Below, piece by piece: positions 1 through 61,994 of a stretch of DNA of 64,000 bases (position 1 is the stretch's first letter; each line of letters opens with the position of its first letter). Location: positions 1 to 64,000 of the forward strand of contig VGXU01000006.1 of the NCBI GenBank assembly GCA_016873215.1, read 5' to 3'. Below the pieces are notes generated by a model. That model worked only from the letters and a program-made list of their open reading frames with translations. It was not told where the DNA came from and ran no database searches. The translations under genes and the position numbers were made by a program. This DNA is from Planctomycetota bacterium (GTDB lineage Bacteria > Planctomycetota > Phycisphaerae > Sedimentisphaerales > Anaerohalosphaeraceae).

Positions 1-37
1 CCTTGAAGGTCGCTCCAAACTGTCTGCGTTGTGTCAT
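1..37 (-). CDS. Transposase OrfA N-terminus (IS3-like), partial
   Basis: Only the first 12 codons are present: MTQRRQFGATFK. This matches the start usual for IS3-family OrfA proteins, where a short basic stretch followed by a Phe-Lys motif leads into the helix-turn-helix of the transposase DNA-binding domain. An AAGAAAGGA ribosome-binding-like stretch precedes the ATG by about a dozen bases. The family call rests on a very short piece, so it is likely but not proven. Confidence 0.55.
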   Translation of the reverse strand, partial: MTQRRQFGATFK

Positions 38-128
38 AATTCATACATCCTTTCTTCTTTGATTGCCGACTGAATTATACCACAACCACTATCTTATACC
101 CTGGTACTAAATTCGGGGAGTATTATAG
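1..128 (-). mobile_element. Left end of an IS3-like insertion sequence, cut by the window edge
   Basis: The minus strand starts a transposase-like reading frame at 37 that runs off the window. Positions 38-128 look like the leader and outer end of the element, in AT-rich sequence unlike the neighbouring gene. The outer boundary is placed near 124-128 because the truncated PEP-CTERM frame to the right opens only after the TAG at 126-128. Terminal inverted repeats and target duplication cannot be checked because the other end lies outside the window. Confidence 0.5.
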
Positions 129-146
129 GCTCTTACCATCGCTGAA

Positions 147-830
147 ATGGCTATGCTGCCTGAAGGCGGCCATGCTACCAGCGATCCGGTCGTGCTTCTT
201 TCGTCAACCGATCTGGTCCCCGACCCGGGTTTTAAGAGTTTTCAGATTCGCGATCTGACCCGTGCGATGACCATCTACGGCACCAACGCCGAGATTGACG
301 CCGCCCTGACCGGCTTTGGCGTCGGCGATATTATCGATATCTCCGGCTACACCGCTCATGTCGGCGGGGCGCTGGTACTTACCACCGGCGGCACCGTTGG
401 CGGCTTTGCCGTCAGCGGCCGTACTTCCACCGCCCCTATGCCATTTAATGCCGTGTACGTTTCTCCTTCCGGCATTGCCCAGTCCTTTGAAAGCAATCTC
501 GTCTGCCTGCAAAACGTCACCTTTGATGGCACCGGCGTTTTCGCCGCCGGGTTTGACTATGCTCTGTCCGGCGGGTCCGCTATGGTACGAATTGCCACAG
601 ACGAGCTTGGCCTGTCTGGTCTGGCTATTCCTACAGGCCCGTTGAATATCACCGGCATCGTCATCCCAAGTTTTTCCGGCGAAGGCTATTGCCTCGCCCC
701 TCGCGGAATCGATGACATCGTCTTAGTTCCCGAACCGGCAACGATGCTGCTTCTGGGACTTGGCGGGATGTTCATAAGAACGGCAAGAGTAAAAGTTAAA
801 AGTGCAAATTTTGAAAGGAGAGAAAAATGA
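147..830 (+). CDS. PEP-CTERM protein, 5'-truncated by the IS element
   Basis: The 227 readable residues end in a PEP-CTERM sorting tail: VPEPATMLLLGLGG, a hydrophobic stretch, then basic residues. The PEP-CTERM/exosortase system is known to target such proteins to the cell surface. No signal peptide is present at the N-terminus, and the frame stays open upstream (ALTIAE before the first Met) back to a TAG at 126-128, next to the IS end. I infer that the original secretion signal was lost by the insertion, so this is probably a dead gene fragment. The middle is beta-rich with no recognised domain. The tail reads through the ribosome-binding site of the next gene and overlaps it by ATGA. Confidence 0.7.
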   Translation: MAMLPEGGHATSDPVVLLSSTDLVPDPGFKSFQIRDLTRAMTIYGTNAEIDAALTGFGVGDIIDISGYTAHVGGALVLTTGGTVGGFAVSGRTSTAPMPFNAVYVSPSGIAQSFESNLVCLQNVTFDGTGVFAAGFDYALSGGSAMVRIATDELGLSGLAIPTGPLNITGIVIPSFSGEGYCLAPRGIDDIVLVPEPATMLLLGLGGMFIRTARVKVKSANFERREK

Positions 831-49257: not shown

Positions 49258-51036
49258 ATGAAAAAGCGTCTGTTATGGCAAATTTTTCCTTCATATCTGG
49301 TCATCACGCTTTTAGCGCTGATCGCTTTTGCAATTAATGTCTCTTTTTTAATAGACAGCCTCTTTATCAGCCAAACTCGCCAGACGCTGGAAGTTCGCGC
49401 CCAATTAGCCCGCGAAGTCATGGAAACATCCATTGATGCGATGAATCTGGCTCACATTGACGCAGCCTGTAAGAAACTCGGACAGGAAACCAAAACCCGC
49501 ATCACGGTGATTGAATCTTCCGGCCGGGTGCTGGGCGAATCGGACCGCGACCCTCAGACGATGGAAAGCCACTTGATGCGCCCGGAAGTGCAGCAGGCTC
49601 TGAAGGAGCAGGTCGGCTTCAATGTCCGTCCCAGCGCCACTCTGGAACAACGGATGATGTATGTCGCTGTTCCTGTTTTGCGCAATAATCAGGTCGTTGC
49701 TGTGGTGCGAACCTCAATTCCTCTGATTGAAATTCAACATACCCTGAGTGCATTGACCCATTCCGTGGTTCGTTACGGCATTATCATCGTACTGGTTCTG
49801 GCTGTAGTCAGTTTGTGGTATTCATGGGAATTATCCCGTCCATTGGTTTTATTGCAAAAAGGTGCGCAAGAATTTGCAAAAGGTCGATTGACACATAAAC
49901 TCGACGCCTCCGGCAAAGGCGAAATTGCCGAGCTTGCCAAGACCATGAATATGATGGCCGAAGAGCTTGACCGCAGGATTCAATCGACGGTACGCCAGCA
50001 GAACCAGCAGCAGGCCATGTTCACCGCAATGCTCGAAGGCGTCATTGCCTTTGATATATCCGGCAAATGCCTGACGCTCAATAAGGCCGCCGCAAAGATG
50101 CTGGGGCTTGATGCGTCCAAATCCGTCGGGCGGACGGCCGGGGAGCTGATTCGCAACAGTGAATTGCAGTTGTTTATTCAGAATGCACTTCAGTCCATAC
50201 AACCAACAGAGCAATTTATATTAATGTCCGAACCCGGCGGACAGGAATCGAATATACAAGCCAGCGCATCACCACTGCTGGATAATTTAAGCGATAACAT
50301 GGGTTCCTTGATTGTACTTAATGATATGACCCGTATTTATCGTCTGGAACAGGTTCGGCGGGACTTTGTTGCCAATGTTTCCCACGAGTTGAAAACGCCG
50401 ATTACGTCCATTCACGGGTTTATCGAGACCCTGCTGGATGGCGCCGTCGATAACCCTGAAAACGTAAAACGGTTTTTAAACATCGTTGCCCGGCAGACCG
50501 ACCGGCTTAATTCGATTATCGAAGATTTGCTGCTGCTGTGCGAATTGGAACAGCAGGATGAAACGGTTCGTGTCCCGCGCCAGGTGTGTATCATTCGTGA
50601 TATTCTGAACAGCGCCGTCGAACTTTGCCGGCACAAAGCCGACGAACGGACTATCCAGCTTGATGTCGAATGCCCGCCCGATTTAAAATCGAACGTCAAT
50701 GCGTCGCTGCTGGAACAGGCCGTATTGAACCTGGCCGACAATGCCGTCAAATACAGCAACCCCGGCGGGAAAGTGATTATCTCAGCCGGTACTGAACAGA
50801 ATAATTTAGTCATTCGCGTGCAGGATTTCGGCTGCGGCATCGCATCCGAACACCAAAGCCGCATTTTTGAACGTTTCTACCGCGTGGATAAGGCCCGCAG
50901 CAGGCAAATGGGCGGTACGGGGCTGGGGCTGGCGATAGTCAAACATATTGCCCAATATCATCAGGGCACGATTCGTGTCGAAAGTGCCATCGGCAAAGGC
51001 AGCACGTTTATTCTGAGCCTGCCGATGAGCCTGTAG
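49258..51036 (+). CDS. phoR: PhoR-type sensor histidine kinase
   Basis: 592 residues. Membrane segment 1 is near residues 10-35, an extracytoplasmic sensor part follows to about 160, and segment 2 is YGIIIVLVLAVVSLWYSW. HAMP (about 190-245) and PAS-like (about 250-360) regions lead to the HisKA dimer with the phospho-acceptor His in VSHELKTPITSI near residue 375. The HATPase has NLADNAVKYSNPGG and GTGLGLAIVKHIA. In phosphate sensing, PhoR activity is restrained by PstSCAB and PhoU, both encoded downstream. It lies 27 bp after phoB. Confidence 0.93.
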   Translation: MKKRLLWQIFPSYLVITLLALIAFAINVSFLIDSLFISQTRQTLEVRAQLAREVMETSIDAMNLAHIDAACKKLGQETKTRITVIESSGRVLGESDRDPQTMESHLMRPEVQQALKEQVGFNVRPSATLEQRMMYVAVPVLRNNQVVAVVRTSIPLIEIQHTLSALTHSVVRYGIIIVLVLAVVSLWYSWELSRPLVLLQKGAQEFAKGRLTHKLDASGKGEIAELAKTMNMMAEELDRRIQSTVRQQNQQQAMFTAMLEGVIAFDISGKCLTLNKAAAKMLGLDASKSVGRTAGELIRNSELQLFIQNALQSIQPTEQFILMSEPGGQESNIQASASPLLDNLSDNMGSLIVLNDMTRIYRLEQVRRDFVANVSHELKTPITSIHGFIETLLDGAVDNPENVKRFLNIVARQTDRLNSIIEDLLLLCELEQQDETVRVPRQVCIIRDILNSAVELCRHKADERTIQLDVECPPDLKSNVNASLLEQAVLNLADNAVKYSNPGGKVIISAGTEQNNLVIRVQDFGCGIASEHQSRIFERFYRVDKARSRQMGGTGLGLAIVKHIAQYHQGTIRVESAIGKGSTFILSLPMSL

Positions 51037-52542: not shown

Positions 52543-53385
52543 ATGAAAACAGTTAAAAATCATTTTGGAGTTTTTGCCGCGGTGGTACTGGCGGTCATGA
52601 TGTTTGTCTCAATCGCGACGGCGGAGGAAAAGTCGGCAGTCGGTCTGGATGGCTCCACTACCGTCGGCCCCATCGGTGACGCCTTTGCTGAAGTGTTTAT
52701 GAAGTCGCACAACTGCTCAATCACCGTCAAGAAAACCGGTTCCGGCGACGGCGTTGCGGCTCTCATAGACGGCCGTTGCGATATTGCGATGTCCAGCCGT
52801 TTTCTCAAGCCCGAAGAATTCAAAAAAGCGGTGGAAAAAGGGATTTATCCAGTCGCTCATACTGTTGCGATGGACGGGGTTTGCATCATCGTTCACCCCT
52901 CCAATCCCGTTAAAGAATTAACCGGCCAACAGGTTTGCGATATTTATATGGGCAAAATCACCAACTGGAAAGACCTCGGCGGTCCGGATATGCCGATTGT
53001 TGCCATCAGCCGGGATACCTCCAGCGGGACGTATGAAGTCTTTCATGAAAAGGTTCTGAAAAAGCAGAATATGGCTGCCGGGGTCGAATATGTCAACGCC
53101 AATCCCCAGGCATATGCCCGTGTCAAAACCACACCCGGCGCGATTGGTTATGTCGGTCTTGGTTTTCTTGACGACAATGTCAAATCGTTGAAAATCGACG
53201 GCATAATGCCGACCAAACAAACGATTGCCGATGGGACTTATTTAGTCAGCCGGCCGTTGTTTTTGTTCACCAACGGCTACCCGAAGCTTGGTTCTGTGAT
53301 TCACGCATTTTGCATCTTCTATCTGACGGAAGAAGGCCAGTCTATCATTGAGGCCAAGGGATTTGTTCCGATGACAAATTATTAA
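52543..53385 (+). CDS. pstS: Phosphate-binding protein PstS (first system)
   Basis: 280 residues with a Sec signal ending ATA. The periplasmic binding fold shows LDGSTTVGPIGDAF (phosphate-binding loop), RCDIAMSSRFL, ITNWKDLGGPDMPIVAISRDTSSGTYEVF and TPGAIGYVGLGF, the pattern of PstS. It delivers phosphate to PstCA. AAAGAAAGGAAAGG precedes the ATG. It is the first gene of the pstSCAB-phoU operon under the Pho box at 52476. Confidence 0.94.
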   Translation: MKTVKNHFGVFAAVVLAVMMFVSIATAEEKSAVGLDGSTTVGPIGDAFAEVFMKSHNCSITVKKTGSGDGVAALIDGRCDIAMSSRFLKPEEFKKAVEKGIYPVAHTVAMDGVCIIVHPSNPVKELTGQQVCDIYMGKITNWKDLGGPDMPIVAISRDTSSGTYEVFHEKVLKKQNMAAGVEYVNANPQAYARVKTTPGAIGYVGLGFLDDNVKSLKIDGIMPTKQTIADGTYLVSRPLFLFTNGYPKLGSVIHAFCIFYLTEEGQSIIEAKGFVPMTNY

Positions 53386-54428
53386 TGAAACTTCAGGAGG
53401 CAGTTGCCCCGGGAATAAGAATGGCGAAATATTCTGCACAAATCGCCGGAAAATCAAAGAAAGCAGCGGCGGGGTTTACCCGACCGCTGCTTCTCACTCC
53501 ATCGGAGGACATGCTGGGGTTTTTATCCGGCCATCTCGGGAGGGCGGCATTGTTTCTGATTACCGCCACGTCGGTAGTCGCCGTCTTTTTGATTTTTTAT
53601 TTTGTGATTCGCGAGTCCGCCCCATTCTTTTTCAACAAAAGCTTCCCGGCTGCGATGGCACGCATCAAAGAATTTTTTACCGACTCCGGCTGGTACCCCG
53701 CCGCGACGGAACCCCGTTACGGCGGCCTGGCTTTGATCGTCGGGTCACTGTATGTTACTCTCGGCTCCCTGATTTTAGCGGTGCCTTTGGGGCTGTTTGC
53801 AGCTATATTTCTCAGCGACATCGCTCCCTTTAATCTGCGGCAAATCTGCAAGCCCGTCATTGAGATTCTGGCGGCGATTCCTTCCGTGGCCTATGGGTTT
53901 TTCGCGGTGATGGTGTTTGCCCCGTGGCTTCAGAAAAGTCTCGGATTTTCCACCGGAACCAACGCCCTGAACGCCTCCGTGATTCTGGCGATTATGGCGT
54001 TGCCGACGATTATCAGCGTTTCGGAAGATGCGATGTCCGCCATTGGACGTGAAACCCGCGAGGCCTCTTATGCCCTTGGCGCCACGCGAGCCGAAACGAT
54101 GGTCAAGGTGGTTATTCCCGCCGCGCACAGCGGGATTCTGGCTGCGGTGATTCTGGGGATGATGCGGGCTATGGGTGAAACGATGGTCGTCTGGATGGCT
54201 TCCGGCAACGCCGGCCGGATTCCTTCGCCGTGGTGGGATTTATCGCAGTCTATCCGCACGATGACGGCCACCATCGCCGGCGACATGGGAGAAACACCGA
54301 AAAATTCCGAACACTATTATGCGTTATTCACTGTCGGCCTGACATTGCTACTGTTTACGTTCAGTCTCAATCTGGTCAGCGAATATCTGCTGGGCAAAGT
54401 GATGAAAACCAGTCGAGGCGGAAAATGA
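53385..54428 (+). CDS. pstC: Phosphate ABC permease PstC (first system)
   Basis: 347 residues from an ATG that overlaps the pstS stop (TAATG); ATG 53421 is an alternative with GGGAA upstream. Six membrane segments are visible. The permease EAA-type motif lies in ETREASYALGATRAETMVKVVIPAAHSGILAA, and MRAMGETMVVWMASG is typical of PstC. It pairs with PstA to form the channel. Its last bases overlap pstA by ATGA. Confidence 0.93.
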   Translation: MKLQEAVAPGIRMAKYSAQIAGKSKKAAAGFTRPLLLTPSEDMLGFLSGHLGRAALFLITATSVVAVFLIFYFVIRESAPFFFNKSFPAAMARIKEFFTDSGWYPAATEPRYGGLALIVGSLYVTLGSLILAVPLGLFAAIFLSDIAPFNLRQICKPVIEILAAIPSVAYGFFAVMVFAPWLQKSLGFSTGTNALNASVILAIMALPTIISVSEDAMSAIGRETREASYALGATRAETMVKVVIPAAHSGILAAVILGMMRAMGETMVVWMASGNAGRIPSPWWDLSQSIRTMTATIAGDMGETPKNSEHYYALFTVGLTLLLFTFSLNLVSEYLLGKVMKTSRGGK

Positions 54429-56086
54429 GAACACAAATTCGACAGTCTCTCGATAAAATGTTCACGGCTTTCGCCGGCAGCGTGGTACTGCTGATTGCCG
54501 GCGTGCTGCTGGTTGTGCTTGTGCCGATGTTTCGCAAGGGACTGTCGGCGGTTTTCTTTACCGAAACCGTCGAATTTCGAAAACTGCAAATGGACCTGCA
54601 CGACCGCGGCGATGAACGGACACTGAAACAGGAACTGGAGCGGGTTGCCGCCGCACGAAAACCGATTTATGATATTCTCCTGGCGTTTAGCCGTGGTCTG
54701 GATATGGAACCACGGGTTAAAGAGGTTAAGAATATTTATCAGCAATACGGCGAATATCTGAATTATCGCAATACTCCCAAAGAACAATACACCGAATGCC
54801 GAAAACAGGCCAAAGAGATTCGTGACACGATCCTTGACGCTCTCGAAAGCATGGATAAACAGGTTGTCCTGGCCAATCTTGATAAGGCGTTGGCGCAAAA
54901 AGGGAATCCAACTTTCAAAGATACGCCGGTTCAGCATTTTTTTACCGTTGCCGAACAATATCGTAAAACCGCCCAGACCGTTGATTTGACAAAGCGGTCG
55001 GAATACCTGGCCGGGCTGCGAGATGTCACAGCGGCCATTCGTCAATTGTTCGGGCCTTTGCCGGGTGAAGATGAGCCGCCGTTGCCGATGGATCAATACG
55101 GGGCGACGCGAATGGATATGGCCCGCAAAGCTCTGCATACGCTGTTGTGGGACGAACAATGGATTGCGGATGGCCCCGGCAAACCGCTGGTAAAAAAAAT
55201 AATCGCTCGAAAAACGCAATTTACAGGAACCGAACTGGAACCGCTGTTTGATAGAGTGGAGAAAAATTTTAACGCATTGCTGCTTCCACGTCATCGTTTT
55301 TACTGGCAGTATTTCATCGACGACTGGGTTAACAGCCATTACTTCGGCGGCATCGGGCCGGAGATTCTTGGCACGCTGTTGCTGACTGTTCTTTCAATGC
55401 TTTTTGCCGTTCCGTTCGGAGTTGTTTCCGCCGCCTATCTGGTCGAGTACGCCTCGGACAACATCTGGATTAAAATCATTCGCATCTGCATCAATACGCT
55501 GGCCGGCGTTCCAAGCATCGTCTATGGTCTGTTCGGCCTGGCATTTTTTGTCATTACAATTTCCGCCATCGGCAAGCCCTGTATCCTGGCGGCGTCCCTG
55601 ACGCTGTCGATTCTGGTGCTGCCGGTGATTATCCGGGCCAGCGAGGAGGCCATTCGGGCCGTGCCGCAGACCTACCGCGAAGCGTCGCTGGCACTGGGTG
55701 CCGGGAAATTCCGTACGCTTGTGAAAGTAATTTTACCGGCGGCGGGACCTGGAATTCTGACCGGTATCATCCTGAGCCTGAGTCGTGCCGCCGGTGAAAC
55801 CGCTCCCATCCTCTTTACCGGCGTTGTCGCAATGGGGCCGATTCCCAATTTCGGTACTCCCGCCGAGTGGGTACGAAACCCGGCAAGTATTTTCGGCGGG
55901 CTTTTCCAGCCTACGCGCGCGTTGTCTTACGGCAGTTATGACATTGCCGTCGGCGACAGGATTTCAATGCTGGTTCCGCATCAGCAGTTCGGGATGGTGA
56001 TGACGCTGATTTTGCTGATACTGGTTCTAAACGTTACAGCAATTGTGATTCGTTCCCGTCTCAGTAAAAAATTGCGCGGCCATTAA
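54425..56086 (+). CDS. pstA: Phosphate ABC permease PstA with a large periplasmic insertion
   Basis: 553 residues, nearly twice the usual 280-300. Membrane segment 1 is [17 protein letters not shown] (about 20-36). Residues about 45-305 are an inserted hydrophilic, strongly helical, charged domain ([41 protein letters not shown]) predicted on the periplasmic side. The canonical PstA core then follows, with [53 protein letters not shown] and [15 protein letters not shown]. The insert has no recognised domain; a role in docking PstS, porin or wall is a guess. The second system's PstA (59621) has no such insert. Confidence 0.9.
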
Positions 56087-56142
56087 CAATGGCGAAAACA
56101 ATGGGTATAATGGAAATGACAGAACAGGAAGAAAGGAATTCA

Positions 56143-56997
56143 ATGGAACCGAAAAGTGCCGTTCCACTGAAAAAAACAGGTGCCGGAAATGCCGTTCGCC
56201 CGCAGGTTGCAGCCGACTCCGCCGCGTATGTCGATTCCGGCAAGCCGGCGGTTATATCAGCGGAGCGGTTCAGTTTCTTTTACGGTTCGAAGTGCGGCGT
56301 CAATAACGTCTCCATGGACATTCGCACCGGTTCCGTCACCGCCATCATCGGCCCCAGCGGTTGCGGTAAAAGTACGTTTCTTCGCAGCATTAACCGGATG
56401 AATGACCTGATTCCCAACACGCGTACCGAAGGTACGCTGGCCGTGAATGGATGCGATGTCTATGACAAACGCACCAATTTGATTAACCTACGGCAGCAGG
56501 TAGGAATGGTTTTTCAGAAGCCCAACCCGTTTGCAAAGACGATTTTTGAAAATATCGTTTACGGTCCGCGATTGCAGGGCGTCCGCAGCAAACGCCGGCT
56601 TTCCGAAATGGTCGAAAAATGTCTGCGGGATTCGGCGATGTGGGATGAGGTCAAAGACGACCTTCACAAATCCGCCCTGGCCCTGTCCGGCGGCCAGCAG
56701 CAGCGGCTGTGTATCGCGCGTACGCTGGCGACAAAACCCAATGTTCTGCTGATGGATGAACCCTGTTCGGCGCTCGACCCCATCGCCACGGCACGCATCG
56801 AAGACCTCATCGCGCAGTTGAAGGGCACTTATACAATTGTGATTGTCACCCATAATATGCAGCAGGCCGCCCGCGTCAGCGACTACACGGCGTTTTTCTG
56901 TCTGGGTGAACTGATTGAATACGACCGTACGGACAAACTCTTCACCAACCCGGCCAAAAAAGCGACCGAAGATTATATCACCGGGCGATTTGGATAA
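56143..56997 (+). CDS. pstB: Phosphate ABC ATPase PstB (first system, canonical)
   Basis: 284 residues from the ATG at 56143, chosen because AAAGGA lies five bases upstream; upstream in-frame ATGs (56089, 56101) lack this. All ATPase motifs are intact: Walker [11 protein letters not shown]-loop MVFQKPNP, signature LSGGQQQRL, Walker [12 protein letters not shown] and H-loop VTHNMQQA. It has a longer N-terminal extension than E. coli PstB. It is expected to work as a homodimer with PstC-PstA. Confidence 0.95.
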
Positions 56998-57017: not shown

Positions 57018-57683
57018 ATGACCGCACATATGGCCAATGAAATTCAGAAACTGAAAAGCAAACTGTTGTTTCTTTGTTCGCTGGTCGAGCAGAGCCTCTG
57101 GAAGTCCGTCAAATCGCTGCGCCAGCGCGACGGCCAACTGGCTAAAGAAGTTATCGACGAGGATGTCGTGATCGACCAGAACGAAGTTGATGTCGAAGAA
57201 GAATGTCTGAAAATTCTGGCACTGCATCAGCCGGTAGCCATTGATTTGCGGTTTATTGTAACCGCGCTGAAGATCAACGACGACCTTGAACGCATCGGCG
57301 ATTTGTCGGTCAACATCGCTGAACGCAGCGAATTCCTGGCGAGACATGACCCCGTGCCGACGCCTTTTGACTTTGATACGATGGCACGGATTACCCAGCA
57401 GATGCTGCGGGATAGCCTCGACGCACTGGTGAATACGAATTGCGCCCTGGCCGTAAAAGTCCTCAAAGACGACGACCATGTGGACGCCATTAACAAGGAA
57501 ATGTACGACCAGGTCAAGCAGGCCATCATTGACCATCCGCAATACATTGAAAGTCTGATTCATCTGCTCAGCGTATCGCGTCATCTTGAACGTATCGCCG
57601 ACCATGCCGTGAATATCGCTGAAAATGTGATTTATATGGTCGAAGGACGCATCATCCGCCACAAAACCGAAGAATATCAGTAA
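57018..57683 (+). CDS. phoU: Phosphate signalling protein PhoU (first copy)
   Basis: 221 residues, two three-helix bundles. The metal-binding repeats are DDLERIGDLSVNIAER and RHLERIADHAVNIAEN. PhoU links Pst transport to PhoR and represses the Pho response when phosphate is ample. It closes the first pst operon and is followed by a terminator. Confidence 0.94.
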   Translation: MTAHMANEIQKLKSKLLFLCSLVEQSLWKSVKSLRQRDGQLAKEVIDEDVVIDQNEVDVEEECLKILALHQPVAIDLRFIVTALKINDDLERIGDLSVNIAERSEFLARHDPVPTPFDFDTMARITQQMLRDSLDALVNTNCALAVKVLKDDDHVDAINKEMYDQVKQAIIDHPQYIESLIHLLSVSRHLERIADHAVNIAENVIYMVEGRIIRHKTEEYQ

Positions 57684-58774: not shown

Positions 58775-59624
58775 ACGCATTATTGAAACCGCCATTCGCG
58801 TCAGCGGCTTTGCCGTTATTGCGTTCGTTATTTTGATTTTCCTGTTCTTACTCAAGGACTCCCTGTCGCTGTTTCGGGTCTATCCCCTCAAGGCGTTCCT
58901 GACCAGCACACAATGGCTGCCGATTTCGGAACCGCCGACGTTTGGAATTATTCCGCTTTTAATGGGCTCGATTCTGGTCATGGTAGGGGCAATTGTTATT
59001 TGTGTACCGATCGGCGTCGCAACAGCTTTGTTCATTGCAGAAGTAGCGCCCGGCTATCTGAAAATGATTCTTAAATCGCTGGTGGAAATTCTTGCGTCGA
59101 TTCCCAGCGTGGTTCTGGGCTTTATCGGGATCGTCTGGCTGGGGCCGTTTCTTAAAACCACACTTCATTTGAATACTGGTATGTGCGGCCTGACAGGGGC
59201 GATTCTGCTGGCTTTTATGGCGCTGCCGACGATTATCAGCATTTCCGAAGACGCTATCATCGGGATTCCAAGGTCGTATAAAGAGGCCGCTTACGGCCTG
59301 GGCGCAACCCGCTGGCAGACGATGTGGCGGATTGTGCTGCCCGCCGCCTCGTCAGGGATTATTGCCGCGGTAATGCTGGGCATCGGCCGTGTTATCGGCG
59401 AGACGATGGTGGTGATGATGGTAACAGGAAATGCGCCGATTATCCCCCATTCGATTTTGCAGCCCCTGCGGACGCTGACGGCAACCATCGCCGGGGAAAT
59501 GGGCGAAACAGTAGGGGGGTCGGACCATTATTACGCCCTGTTCGCCGTCGGATTGGTCTTGTTTGTTATTACATTTATGCTGAATTTTGTCGCGGATATC
59601 TCTTTACGAAAGAGCAGAAAATGA
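58755..59624 (+). CDS. pstC2: Phosphate ABC permease PstC (second system)
   Basis: 289 residues from a TTG at 58755, with GGAGGC six bases upstream; an earlier TTG at 58734 lacks it. Six membrane segments, the permease motif in RSYKEAAYGLGATRWQTMWRIVLPAASSGIIAA, and IGRVIGETMVVMMVTGN identify PstC. It overlaps pstA2 by ATGA. Confidence 0.9.
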   Translation: MFRKINERIIETAIRVSGFAVIAFVILIFLFLLKDSLSLFRVYPLKAFLTSTQWLPISEPPTFGIIPLLMGSILVMVGAIVICVPIGVATALFIAEVAPGYLKMILKSLVEILASIPSVVLGFIGIVWLGPFLKTTLHLNTGMCGLTGAILLAFMALPTIISISEDAIIGIPRSYKEAAYGLGATRWQTMWRIVLPAASSGIIAAVMLGIGRVIGETMVVMMVTGNAPIIPHSILQPLRTLTATIAGEMGETVGGSDHYYALFAVGLVLFVITFMLNFVADISLRKSRK

Positions 59625-60469
59625 ACGCCGCCGGGATTCGACAAAAAATTGCCTTTACGATACTGGGCCTGATTACATTACTGGTCGTGGCGCCGATTGT
59701 ATTGATTATTTATTATGTCATCAGCCGCGGATGGAGCGCTATGTCATGGGAATTTCTGACCGCCGCTCCACGCAATGGAATGAAGGAAGGCGGTATCTTT
59801 CCGGCCATTGTGGGAACGGTGCTGCTGATTGTCGGTACAATGCTGTTTTCGCTGCCGGTGGGGATTCTGTCGGCGGTGTATCTGGTTGAATATGCCAAAG
59901 ATAACCTGTTTACACGGTTGATTAAATTATCGGTGGTCAATCTGTCCGGCATTCCTTCGATTGTATATGGCTTGTTCGGGTTTACACTTTTTGTCGTCTT
60001 TCTGGGGTTTGGAACGTCGATTCTGGCCGGGTCGCTGACACTGGCGATTATGAGTCTGCCGGTAATTATCACGGCCACCAAAGAAGCGCTGGAGGCGGTG
60101 CCGATGACGTATCGGGAAATCAGCCTGTCGCTGGGCGCAACCCGCTGGCAGACTGTACGATATTGCGTGCTGCCTTATGCAATTCCGGGGATTCTGACAG
60201 GTACGGTTCTAAGCCTGAGTCGAGCGGCGGGGGAGACGGCCCCGATTCTGTTCACTGTTGCGGCATTTTATCTGCCCCGGCTGCCGCGTTCAGTCTTTGA
60301 CCAGGTGATGGCCCTGCCGTATCACTTGTATGTCATCTCCACGCAGGTACCCAATATGCCGGCAAAGCTGAGTTTTGCCACGGGGCTTGTTTTAATCGGT
60401 CTGGTATGCCTGATGAACCTGGTCAGTATTGTTCTGCGTGCTCATTATCGAAAGAAAAAGCAATGGTAG
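59621..60469 (+). CDS. pstA2: Phosphate ABC permease PstA (second system)
   Basis: 282 residues, the usual length. Membrane segments include TILGLITLLVVAPIVLIIYYVI. The permease motif is in PMTYREISLSLGATRWQTVRYCVLPYAIPGILTG, followed by [18 protein letters not shown]. It overlaps the next ATPase gene by 7 bp. Contrast with the 553-residue PstA of the first system. Confidence 0.92.
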   Translation: MNAAGIRQKIAFTILGLITLLVVAPIVLIIYYVISRGWSAMSWEFLTAAPRNGMKEGGIFPAIVGTVLLIVGTMLFSLPVGILSAVYLVEYAKDNLFTRLIKLSVVNLSGIPSIVYGLFGFTLFVVFLGFGTSILAGSLTLAIMSLPVIITATKEALEAVPMTYREISLSLGATRWQTVRYCVLPYAIPGILTGTVLSLSRAAGETAPILFTVAAFYLPRLPRSVFDQVMALPYHLYVISTQVPNMPAKLSFATGLVLIGLVCLMNLVSIVLRAHYRKKKQW

Positions 60470-61221
60470 AACAAAACGTTATTATTAAAACAGTCAATCT
60501 GAATTGCTTTTACGGCGACCAGCAGGTTCTGCGGGACATAAATCTGGACGTTTATCGCAATGAGATTCTGGGCATCATTGGCCCGGCCAACAGCGGCAAA
60601 ACTACATTTTTGCGGGCGATGAATCGCCTCAATTCACGATATCTTCACTATCGCCAGACGGGTGAGATTATTTTCGAAAATCAGAATCAGCAGGACATTG
60701 CAGATACGTTATTACGCCAAAAAATAGGCATTATCTTCGCAATGCCGCAGGTGCTGCCCGTGACTATCTATGAAAATGTGGCGTATGGACCGATGGTTCA
60801 CGGCGTCCGGGACAAACACAGGATTGAACAACTGGTTGAGGAATCGCTCAAAAAGGCCTTTGTCTGGGAGGAACTCAAAGATCGTCTGCGCAGTCCCGCG
60901 GTCAAATTATCCGGCGGTCAGCAGCAGCGGCTTTGCATTGCTCGGACACTGGCGATAGAGCCGGACGTGATTTTGTATGATGAGCCGTGCTCAGGATTGG
61001 ACCCTATTTCAACGGCCAAGATGGAAGACACGATGGCCCTGTTGGCTCAGTCTTATACACAGATATTAGTCACCAATAACACCAAGCAGGCTTCGCGTGT
61101 CAGTCATCGATGTGCTTTTTTCCTGATGGGCGAAATGGTCGAAGTGAATCAAACTCAAAAGCTTTTTACCTATCCCGACGACCAGCGTACGGATGATTAC
61201 ATTACCGGTAAATTCGGATAA
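60463..61221 (+). CDS. PstB-like ATPase with degenerate Q- and H-loops (partner A)
   Basis: 252 residues. Walker A (GPANSGKTT, 40-48), signature LSGGQQQRL (149-157), Walker B VILYDEPCSGLD (169-180) are intact. The Q-loop Gln is Ala93 (IGIIFAMP, where PstB has MVFQKP) and the H-loop His is Asn205 (LVTNNTKQA for IVTHNMQQA). Alone as a homodimer it should hydrolyse ATP poorly. The next gene has the opposite defects, so the two are best read as an asymmetric heterodimer serving PstC2-PstA2. The C-terminus (DDYITGKFG) is typical of PstB, so the protein is complete and not decaying. Confidence 0.9.
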   Translation: MVEQNVIIKTVNLNCFYGDQQVLRDINLDVYRNEILGIIGPANSGKTTFLRAMNRLNSRYLHYRQTGEIIFENQNQQDIADTLLRQKIGIIFAMPQVLPVTIYENVAYGPMVHGVRDKHRIEQLVEESLKKAFVWEELKDRLRSPAVKLSGGQQQRLCIARTLAIEPDVILYDEPCSGLDPISTAKMEDTMALLAQSYTQILVTNNTKQASRVSHRCAFFLMGEMVEVNQTQKLFTYPDDQRTDDYITGKFG

Positions 61222-61226
61222 AAAAG

Positions 61227-61994
61227 ATGGCGGCCTTAAAAACAAGAATATCCATTGAAAACCTCAACATGTTCTATGGCGATTTTCATGCGTTGAAGGA
61301 CGTATGCCTGCAGGTGCCCCAAAACAATGTCACCGCCCTGATTGGTCCTTCCGGCTGCGGCAAATCGACTCTCCTCCGGTGCGTAAACCGGATGAATGAT
61401 TTAATTGACGGCGTCCGGACGGAAGGGCGGATTATTATCGATGACCAAAATATTTTCTCGCCTGAAACGGACGTGGTGCTTTTGCGTAAAAAAGTCGGTA
61501 TGGTCTTTCAGCGCCCCAATGTATTTGATCAGTCAATCCTGAATAATCTGAGATTCGGATTGCGAATACACCGGCAGATGCGTTCTAAAAGCGAAACGAT
61601 GGAGCTTATCCAGAAGAGCCTTGAAGATGTGGGTCTGTGGGATATCCTGAAAGACAAGCTTCATCACAATGCCCGCCAGTTATCGCTTGAGCAGCAGCAG
61701 CGGCTCTGCATAGCAAGAGTGCTGATTCTCCTGCCGGAAGTGATTTTACTGGATGAGCCTTGTTCATCGCTGGACCCAATCGCCACGATGCGGATTGAGG
61801 AATTGTTGCGTGTATTGAGAGAAAGATATACACTGGTTATCGTCACCCATAATATGCAGCAGGCGGCAAGAGCGTCGGATTATACAGGTTTTATGTATAT
61901 GGGCCAATTGATCGAATTCGGTCTTACACAGGGGATTTTCACGGCTCCCTGTAAAGAATTAACTGAAAATTACATTACCGGACATTTTGGTTAA
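61227..61994 (+). CDS. PstB-like ATPase with degenerate signature motif (partner B)
   Basis: 255 residues. Walker [10 protein letters not shown] (40-48), Q-loop Gln95 (MVFQRPN), Walker B VILLDEPCSSLD (172-183) and H-loop His208 (IVTHNMQQA) are all intact. The ABC signature is LSLEQQQRL (152-160) in place of LSGGQQQRL. In an ABC dimer each ATP site joins the Walker/Q/H of one subunit to the signature of the other, so this protein plus the LSGGQ of partner A gives one full site, while partner A's altered loops face LSLEQ. It is only 5 bp after partner A, supporting stoichiometric production. Confidence 0.9.
   Translation: MAALKTRISIENLNMFYGDFHALKDVCLQVPQNNVTALIGPSGCGKSTLLRCVNRMNDLIDGVRTEGRIIIDDQNIFSPETDVVLLRKKVGMVFQRPNVFDQSILNNLRFGLRIHRQMRSKSETMELIQKSLEDVGLWDILKDKLHHNARQLSLEQQQRLCIARVLILLPEVILLDEPCSSLDPIATMRIEELLRVLRERYTLVIVTHNMQQAARASDYTGFMYMGQLIEFGLTQGIFTAPCKELTENYITGHFG

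Follow-up and report, generated by a model that had tools for sequence, protein, structure and literature searches.

PstA1, a phosphate permease subunit encoded in a planctomycete of the order Sedimentisphaerales, carries a real, conserved and translated insert in the loop between its first two transmembrane helices (TM1 and TM2). The protein appears to be a normal Pst permease subunit with a folded periplasmic domain built into this loop, and we give about an even chance to the insert being an arm that docks the soluble binding protein PstS1, in the manner of the P2 domain of MalF. The analysis was performed on a stretch of 64,000 nucleotides (GenBank assembly GCA_016873215.1, contig VGXU01000006.1), referred to below as the window.

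The pstA1 gene and its insert

PstA1 is encoded within a pstSCAB-phoU gene run (Table 1), by a single open frame (54425-56083, with the stop codon extending to 56086) whose ATG overlaps the stop codon of pstC1 (ATGA). The genes are arranged in the order phoB, phoR, porin, pstS1, pstC1, pstA1, pstB1 and phoU1, and phoU1 is followed by a second run, composed of pstS2, pstC2, pstA2, two pstB genes and phoU2. A sequence-only reading of this DNA had described a 553-residue PstA with a normal permease core and an insert between TM1 and TM2 that is missing from PstA2. The frame translation and the profile search agreed with this description: PstA1 passed the curated cut-off of TIGR00974 for PstA (251 bits versus 193.45) over residues 290-547, hydropathy placed TM1 at residues 9-46 and the following hydrophobic segment at residues 308-341, and PstA2 is only 282 aa long (from the ATG at 59621). 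The presence of the insert therefore stands, but its length, given previously as about 260 residues, is corrected here to about 247 (residues 46-292). Within the permease core, Arg454, which is invariant in 30 aligned rows, corresponds to chain residue 220 in 9k3s_A; Arg220 of E. coli PstA is described as required for Pi transport (PMC5775613, partial text).

Table 1. Positions of pstA1, its parts and its neighbouring genes in the window
Feature	Position	Strand	Basis or remark
pstA1 (553 aa), ABC-type phosphate permease subunit carrying the periplasmic insert	54425..56086	+	ORF translation, TIGR00974
TM1, residues ~9-46; N-terminus cytoplasmic by topology	54449..54562	+	hydropathy, model; PstA1 residue 1 aligned with residue 19 of E. 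coli PstA
Insert base, first part, residues ~46-95	54560..54709	+	retained in compact relatives
Insert helical module, residues ~96-183	54710..54973	+	wholly or mostly missing from compact relatives
Insert base, second part, residues ~184-292; contains two strands and the conserved GPxP...YGATR stretch	54974..55300	+	
Permease core TM2-TM6; Arg454 aligned with E. coli PstA Arg220	55346..56083	+	
pstS1, binding protein of the same system; its signal peptide has no lipobox	52543..53385	+	
pstC1, partner permease, 347 aa, without large insert	53385..54428	+	
pstB1	56089..56997	+	
phoU1	57018..57683	+	

The possibility that the insert is a sequencing or assembly artefact is practically negligible. 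A match spanning the insert was detected, in frame, in 30 of the 59 related genomes searched (including the genome of the window), four of them single-contig, and the differences from two same-genus copies at codon positions 1, 2 and 3 numbered 68, 53 and 139, and 70, 53 and 137, respectively, of the 247 codons of the insert. Such a third-position bias is the pattern expected of translated sequence. On these two grounds we rejected both a frameshift and an assembly join, each of which the sequence-only reading had named as fatal to its proposal. Across 30 aligned proteins, the region corresponding to residues 52-292 measures 240-248 aa, and the mean pairwise identity is 40% over residues 46-292 versus 72% over the core. 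Among the remaining 29 genomes, one (G020) contained a fragment at a contig end and 28, some of them incomplete, gave no match. Since several nearly complete genomes (including G014 and G015, 99%) are without a match, the insert is not universal in the order, though it is widespread.

The second gene run contains two adjacent pstB genes, PstB2a (60406-61221) and PstB2b (61227-61994), with complementary motif defects. PstB2a has kept LSGGQ and has Asn in place of the H-loop His (VTNN), while PstB2b has kept the H-loop His and has LSLEQ in place of LSGGQ. The same pattern was observed in seven other genomes of the order (L238-L244): PstB2a has LSGGQ and Asn in 7/7, and PstB2b has (L/I)(S/T)LEQ and His in 6/6 complete copies (the copy in L241 is cut off). 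These motifs suggest that PstB2a and PstB2b pair as an ATPase heterodimer in which one site is consensus and the other degenerate. Adjacent PstB1 and PstB2 of E. faecalis are reported to have identical LSGGQ and H-loop motifs (PMC12096839, partial text); in B. subtilis, the fused importer ATPases RbsA and NupO have been reported to contain degenerate sites (PMC11466899, partial text).

Predicted fold and relatives of the insert

The topology of type I importers is established, and helix parity (with the EAA loop and the C-terminus inside) places the PstA1 insert outside the membrane, in the periplasm. This is at variance with a cytoplasmic location, the further objection foreseen in the earlier reading. 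Modelled alone with AlphaFold2, the insert gave a pLDDT of 90.7 and a pTM of 0.82. In the model of full-length PstA1 the pLDDT was 82-93 in blocks covering residues 41-290 and below 50 at the junction (301-309) and in parts of the core, so how the insert sits on the permease is uncertain. The modelled insert has strands at its start and in its last third, with long helices between them; it is predicted to consist of a small strand/helix base, whose strands presumably form one sheet, bearing a four-helix bundle module. The coiled-coil structure previously thought probable was not supported by this analysis, as the models contain a helical bundle on a strand/helix base and no extended coiled coil.

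The fold could not be assigned to a known domain, as had already been the case with sequence only. No Pfam model exceeded its cut-off over the insert, and none of the 25 of 35 NCBIfam rows listed fell within it. A PDB profile search of the insert returned eight matches up to E 1, all of them weak (best E 0.2), and a Foldseek search gave nothing under E 0.001 (best 0.15). With VIA-align, the middle helices (PstA residues ~88-189) matched many four-helix bundles, including those of McpS (Z 10.0 over 100 residues) and TorS (Z 9.6 over 105 residues), and designed and unrelated bundles scored alongside these two; below Z ~13, according to the tool, a helical-bundle match may mean a mere common arrangement. 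The VIA-align list scarcely covers the base of the insert. Literature searches revealed no published description of a PstA1-type insert.

Of 294 genomes of the phylum, 13 were matched by the profile of the insert. Six of them belong to the order of the window and have the full insert, and the other seven, spread over five further families, have a compact one. In the alignment of the seven compact inserts, six were without residues ~96-183 and the seventh had a short piece of this region; all retained the base, including the stretch LxGPxP...YGx(T/A)RWD, and hhalign gave 100% for full against compact inserts. Conservation is lowest in the middle module (mean pairwise identity 33% for residues 96-180) and higher in the base. 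Judging from these alignments, the insert is composed of a better-conserved base and a helical module that can be missing in relatives. The insert is not peculiar to this one protein, being widespread in the order, and its base is also found elsewhere.

Outside the Planctomycetota, the whole insert profile was matched in 2 of 198 genomes from the phylum of Desulfatibacillum alkenivorans (Desulfobacterota), with a PstA of 516 aa. No match was obtained in 200 genomes from the phylum of Halopseudomonas pertucinogena, an empty result that, according to the tool, shows nothing without a positive control. With exact peptide patterns, which reach close relatives only, a single genome per species was scanned for 84,980 species; 80 of 88 loci were kept, and nine of these gave matches spanning the insert, all with planctomycete titles. 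The PstC frames beside the compact pstA genes and those of the Desulfatibacillum phylum (L174, L176-L180, L236, L237) comprise 382-510 codons, untrimmed to the start, and apparently contain extra hydrophobic segments compared with PstC1.

The planctomycetes also contain another type of long PstA, designated here D-type (L134-L153, L206-L213, L215), whose insert occupies the same TM1-TM2 loop. It is very improbable that the PstA1 insert is a diverged form of this insert or of DUF3333 (PF11812). The former idea could draw on the shared loop and the latter on a match of DUF3333 to PstA1 (16.6 bits, E 0.0089), but this match is below the cut-off of 26.5 bits and confined to residues 2-60, mostly TM1, and DUF3333 identity was rejected for this reason. 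The same cut-off was passed in 0 of 246 genomes of the phylum, and one of five scanned D-type proteins had a DUF3333 row, again below the cut-off. Kinship with the D-type insert was likewise rejected: hhalign of the insert against 18 D-type segments (a few of them with ragged N-terminal ends) gave 0.9%, as opposed to the 100% obtained with compact relatives, the two types separate in a tree of PstA cores, and the PstC open frames of the D-type comprise 745-889 codons in eight loci (L206-L213), in contrast to the normal-sized PstC1. In three loci (L145, L146, L147) open frames of 1282-1508 codons extend over the long pstA; these are probably not giant PstA proteins, because their upstream part is unlike protein and overlaps the pstC region.

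The core tree was built from 104 PstA cores with the insert removed. The PstA proteins with full (28) or compact (7) inserts and those of the Desulfatibacillum phylum (2) formed one group (SH-aLRT 99), and nine D-type rows formed a separate one (SH-aLRT 100); the presence of an insert needs at least two changes on this tree. It is a quick tree without bootstraps, in which 25 rows were cut by a fallback rule and some short rows have long branches; 17 short rows from outside the phylum were included and seven outside-phylum rows lacking the cutting motif were excluded. Most simply, the TM1-TM2 loop of PstA would have gained a domain twice, the case of MalF aside.

Partner binding proteins and the possible role of the insert

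The window contains binding proteins of both kinds: PstS1, without a lipobox-like Cys, and PstS2, with one. We surveyed the PstS partners of 38 long-PstA loci (23 full, six compact, nine D-type) and 38 short-PstA loci, the D-type and short loci being hand-picked from locus listings, not random; two partial PstS, two identical ones, two without a downstream PstA and one that was not the nearest PstS were set aside. A clear lipoprotein PstS was found in 0/38 long-PstA loci (35 without a candidate Cys, three ambiguous) versus 28/38 short-PstA loci. Within the order of the window the figures were 0/17 and 15/18, and the three non-lipoprotein short-PstA loci (L200-L202) belong to genomes in which no match spanned the insert. 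Among the short loci scored as soluble, L197 has SCGG just past the limit set in the script after the hydrophobic stretch, and its PstS may be a lipoprotein. When a stricter PROSITE-like pattern was applied, lipoprotein PstS was called in 2/38 long and 19/38 short loci. The PstS proteins of the two carriers from the Desulfatibacillum phylum were called soluble and have a GSTTVGP start.

Outside the phylum, PstS of short-PstA loci was called soluble in 47/52 cases (two lipoproteins, three ambiguous), as scored on the plus-strand hits of L040-L110 irrespective of pstA adjacency, with four of 56 skipped. Thus, a soluble PstS needs no insert, and a general replacement of the PstS lipid anchor by the insert was rejected on the basis of this control. 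The association between insert and PstS lipobox rests on two origins, and with only two pairs an independent-pairs test cannot reach significance. Co-variation of distances in 22 loci, given core and PstC, was not significant between PstS and either the middle module (partial r 0.19, p 0.07) or the base of the insert (partial r -0.17, p 0.87).

Two further observations concern the binding proteins. In the fetched stretches of two single-contig genomes, G042 (L170, L226) and G046 (L172, L227), no pstS was found upstream of the long pstA, while other loci of the order reaching that far do have an upstream pstS. Furthermore, the mature domain of the PstS partners of full and compact long PstA starts, where shown, with GSTTVGP (once GSSTVGP), and PstS beside short PstA mostly have other starts (GSDT, GSSTV(F/Y)P and others), although GSSTVGP also occurs in L231, next to a short PstA.

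The model of full-length PstA1 aligned with E. coli PstA (9k3x_A; residues 1..551 with 19..296, Z 22.2). It also aligned with a chain of a MalFGK2 structure (9nxc_H; residues 7..546 with 58..511, Z 14.5), and this chain, judging by its residue numbers, is probably MalF. On the strength of these two alignments, for which first and last residues are given, the insert falls at the loop position of MalF P2. In MalF, P2 comprises residues 91-271, part of which directly contacts MalE (PMC3150292, partial text). Because the equivalent MalF loop domain contacts the maltose-binding protein, we infer that docking is the most likely role of the PstA1 insert. In such a MalF P2-like mode of action, the insert would project beside the periplasmic mouth, capture soluble PstS1 and keep or orient it on PstC1-PstA1 while transport proceeds; the base would be close to the permease, and the helical module would extend further outwards. 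The high pLDDT of the insert modelled alone is in line with this role, and the survey of PstS partners agrees with it partly: the long-PstA loci speak in its favour, whereas the control outside the phylum, the two origins and the non-significant co-variation speak against it. MalF was absent from the fold-search rows listed (Foldseek, VIA-align) and from the PDB profile matches of the insert, although an absence there is no test.

Two other roles have to be weighed against docking. The insert could be a sensor or signalling arm: by binding Pi, a different ligand or PhoR on its periplasmic side, the four-helix module would report periplasmic conditions to the Pst-PhoU-PhoR complex. We regard this as unlikely, even though the middle module aligns with the four-helix sensor domains of McpS and TorS, phoB and phoR lie upstream of pstS1 in the window, the PhoR of the window gave Cache matches just under the cut-offs in the stretch between its hydrophobic segments, and conformations of E. 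coli PstSCAB have been proposed to be sensed by PhoR and PhoU (PMC5775613, partial text). The Z scores are below the level set for helical bundles and lie alongside those of designed or unrelated ones, the presumed sensory module is the part of the insert that varies most and is wholly or mostly missing from compact relatives, and in some loci the fetched stretches showed no phoR next to the long pstA. A more specific version, with a removable four-helix sensor that sits on the conserved base, reads PstS or Pi and sets the Pho response via TM1 or the periplasmic part of PhoR, is more doubtful still. Docking is considered likelier than sensing because the insert lies at the MalF P2 site and because this loop also houses, in other planctomycetes, a second insert that is unrelated to it, suggesting that a periplasmic domain is of use at this position. 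As for PhoR itself (49258-51036), about 120 residues lie between the hydrophobic segments at 4-39 and 162-193. For E. coli PhoR, by contrast, a periplasmic sensory domain is described as lacking (PMC5775613).

The other role, that of a structural or attachment domain which stabilises PstA-PstC or ties the transporter to peptidoglycan, a porin or another envelope protein, appears to us about as improbable as a sensory one. The better-conserved base could pack on the permease, and a porin_5 gene is present in the same gene run in the window and in many relatives; however, Pfam recognised no peptidoglycan-binding or other known domain, and some of the fetched loci showed no porin next to the long pstA.

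Comparison with known transporters and sensors

The permease fold and the conserved Arg are common to PstA1 and E. coli PstA (PstSCAB; PDB 9k3s, 9k3x, 9k3y), but the latter has 296 residues and no such insert. The helical module resembles in its arrangement the four-helix sensor domains of McpS, TorS and PilJ, although the scores are in the range of common bundles, none of these proteins is among the PDB profile matches, and the insert lies inside a transporter loop. The D-type long PstA shares with PstA1 a large insert in the same loop, but this insert is non-homologous, the core belongs to a separate group of the tree and the PstC is also long.

Phosphate importers with insert-bearing permease subunits occur elsewhere. 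P. aeruginosa has long PstA/DUF3333 and PstC/DUF3708 proteins. The combination of a long PstA with DUF3333 and a long PstC with DUF3708 is described as prevalent in Alphaproteobacteria (PMC3597751, partial text). The system of the window differs in that PstA1 fails the DUF3333 cut-off and PstC1 is of normal length.

The insert touches on two partly open questions: how a type I importer keeps and recognises a soluble binding protein, and how Pst reports outside phosphate. Nine of the genomes examined, in which a long PstA is found together with a short PstA-like permease having a lipobox PstS (G000, G003, G011, G018, G025, G027, G036, G055, G056), offer a natural one-cell comparison of an anchored carrier and plain permease with a soluble carrier and armed permease. 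In PstA, two domains unrelated to each other are found at the loop position of MalF P2. Like the PstA1 insert, P2 is a folded periplasmic domain in the loop matching TM1-TM2 of PstA; it has about 181 residues, compared with about 247 in the PstA1 insert, which is mostly helical and includes a four-helix module.
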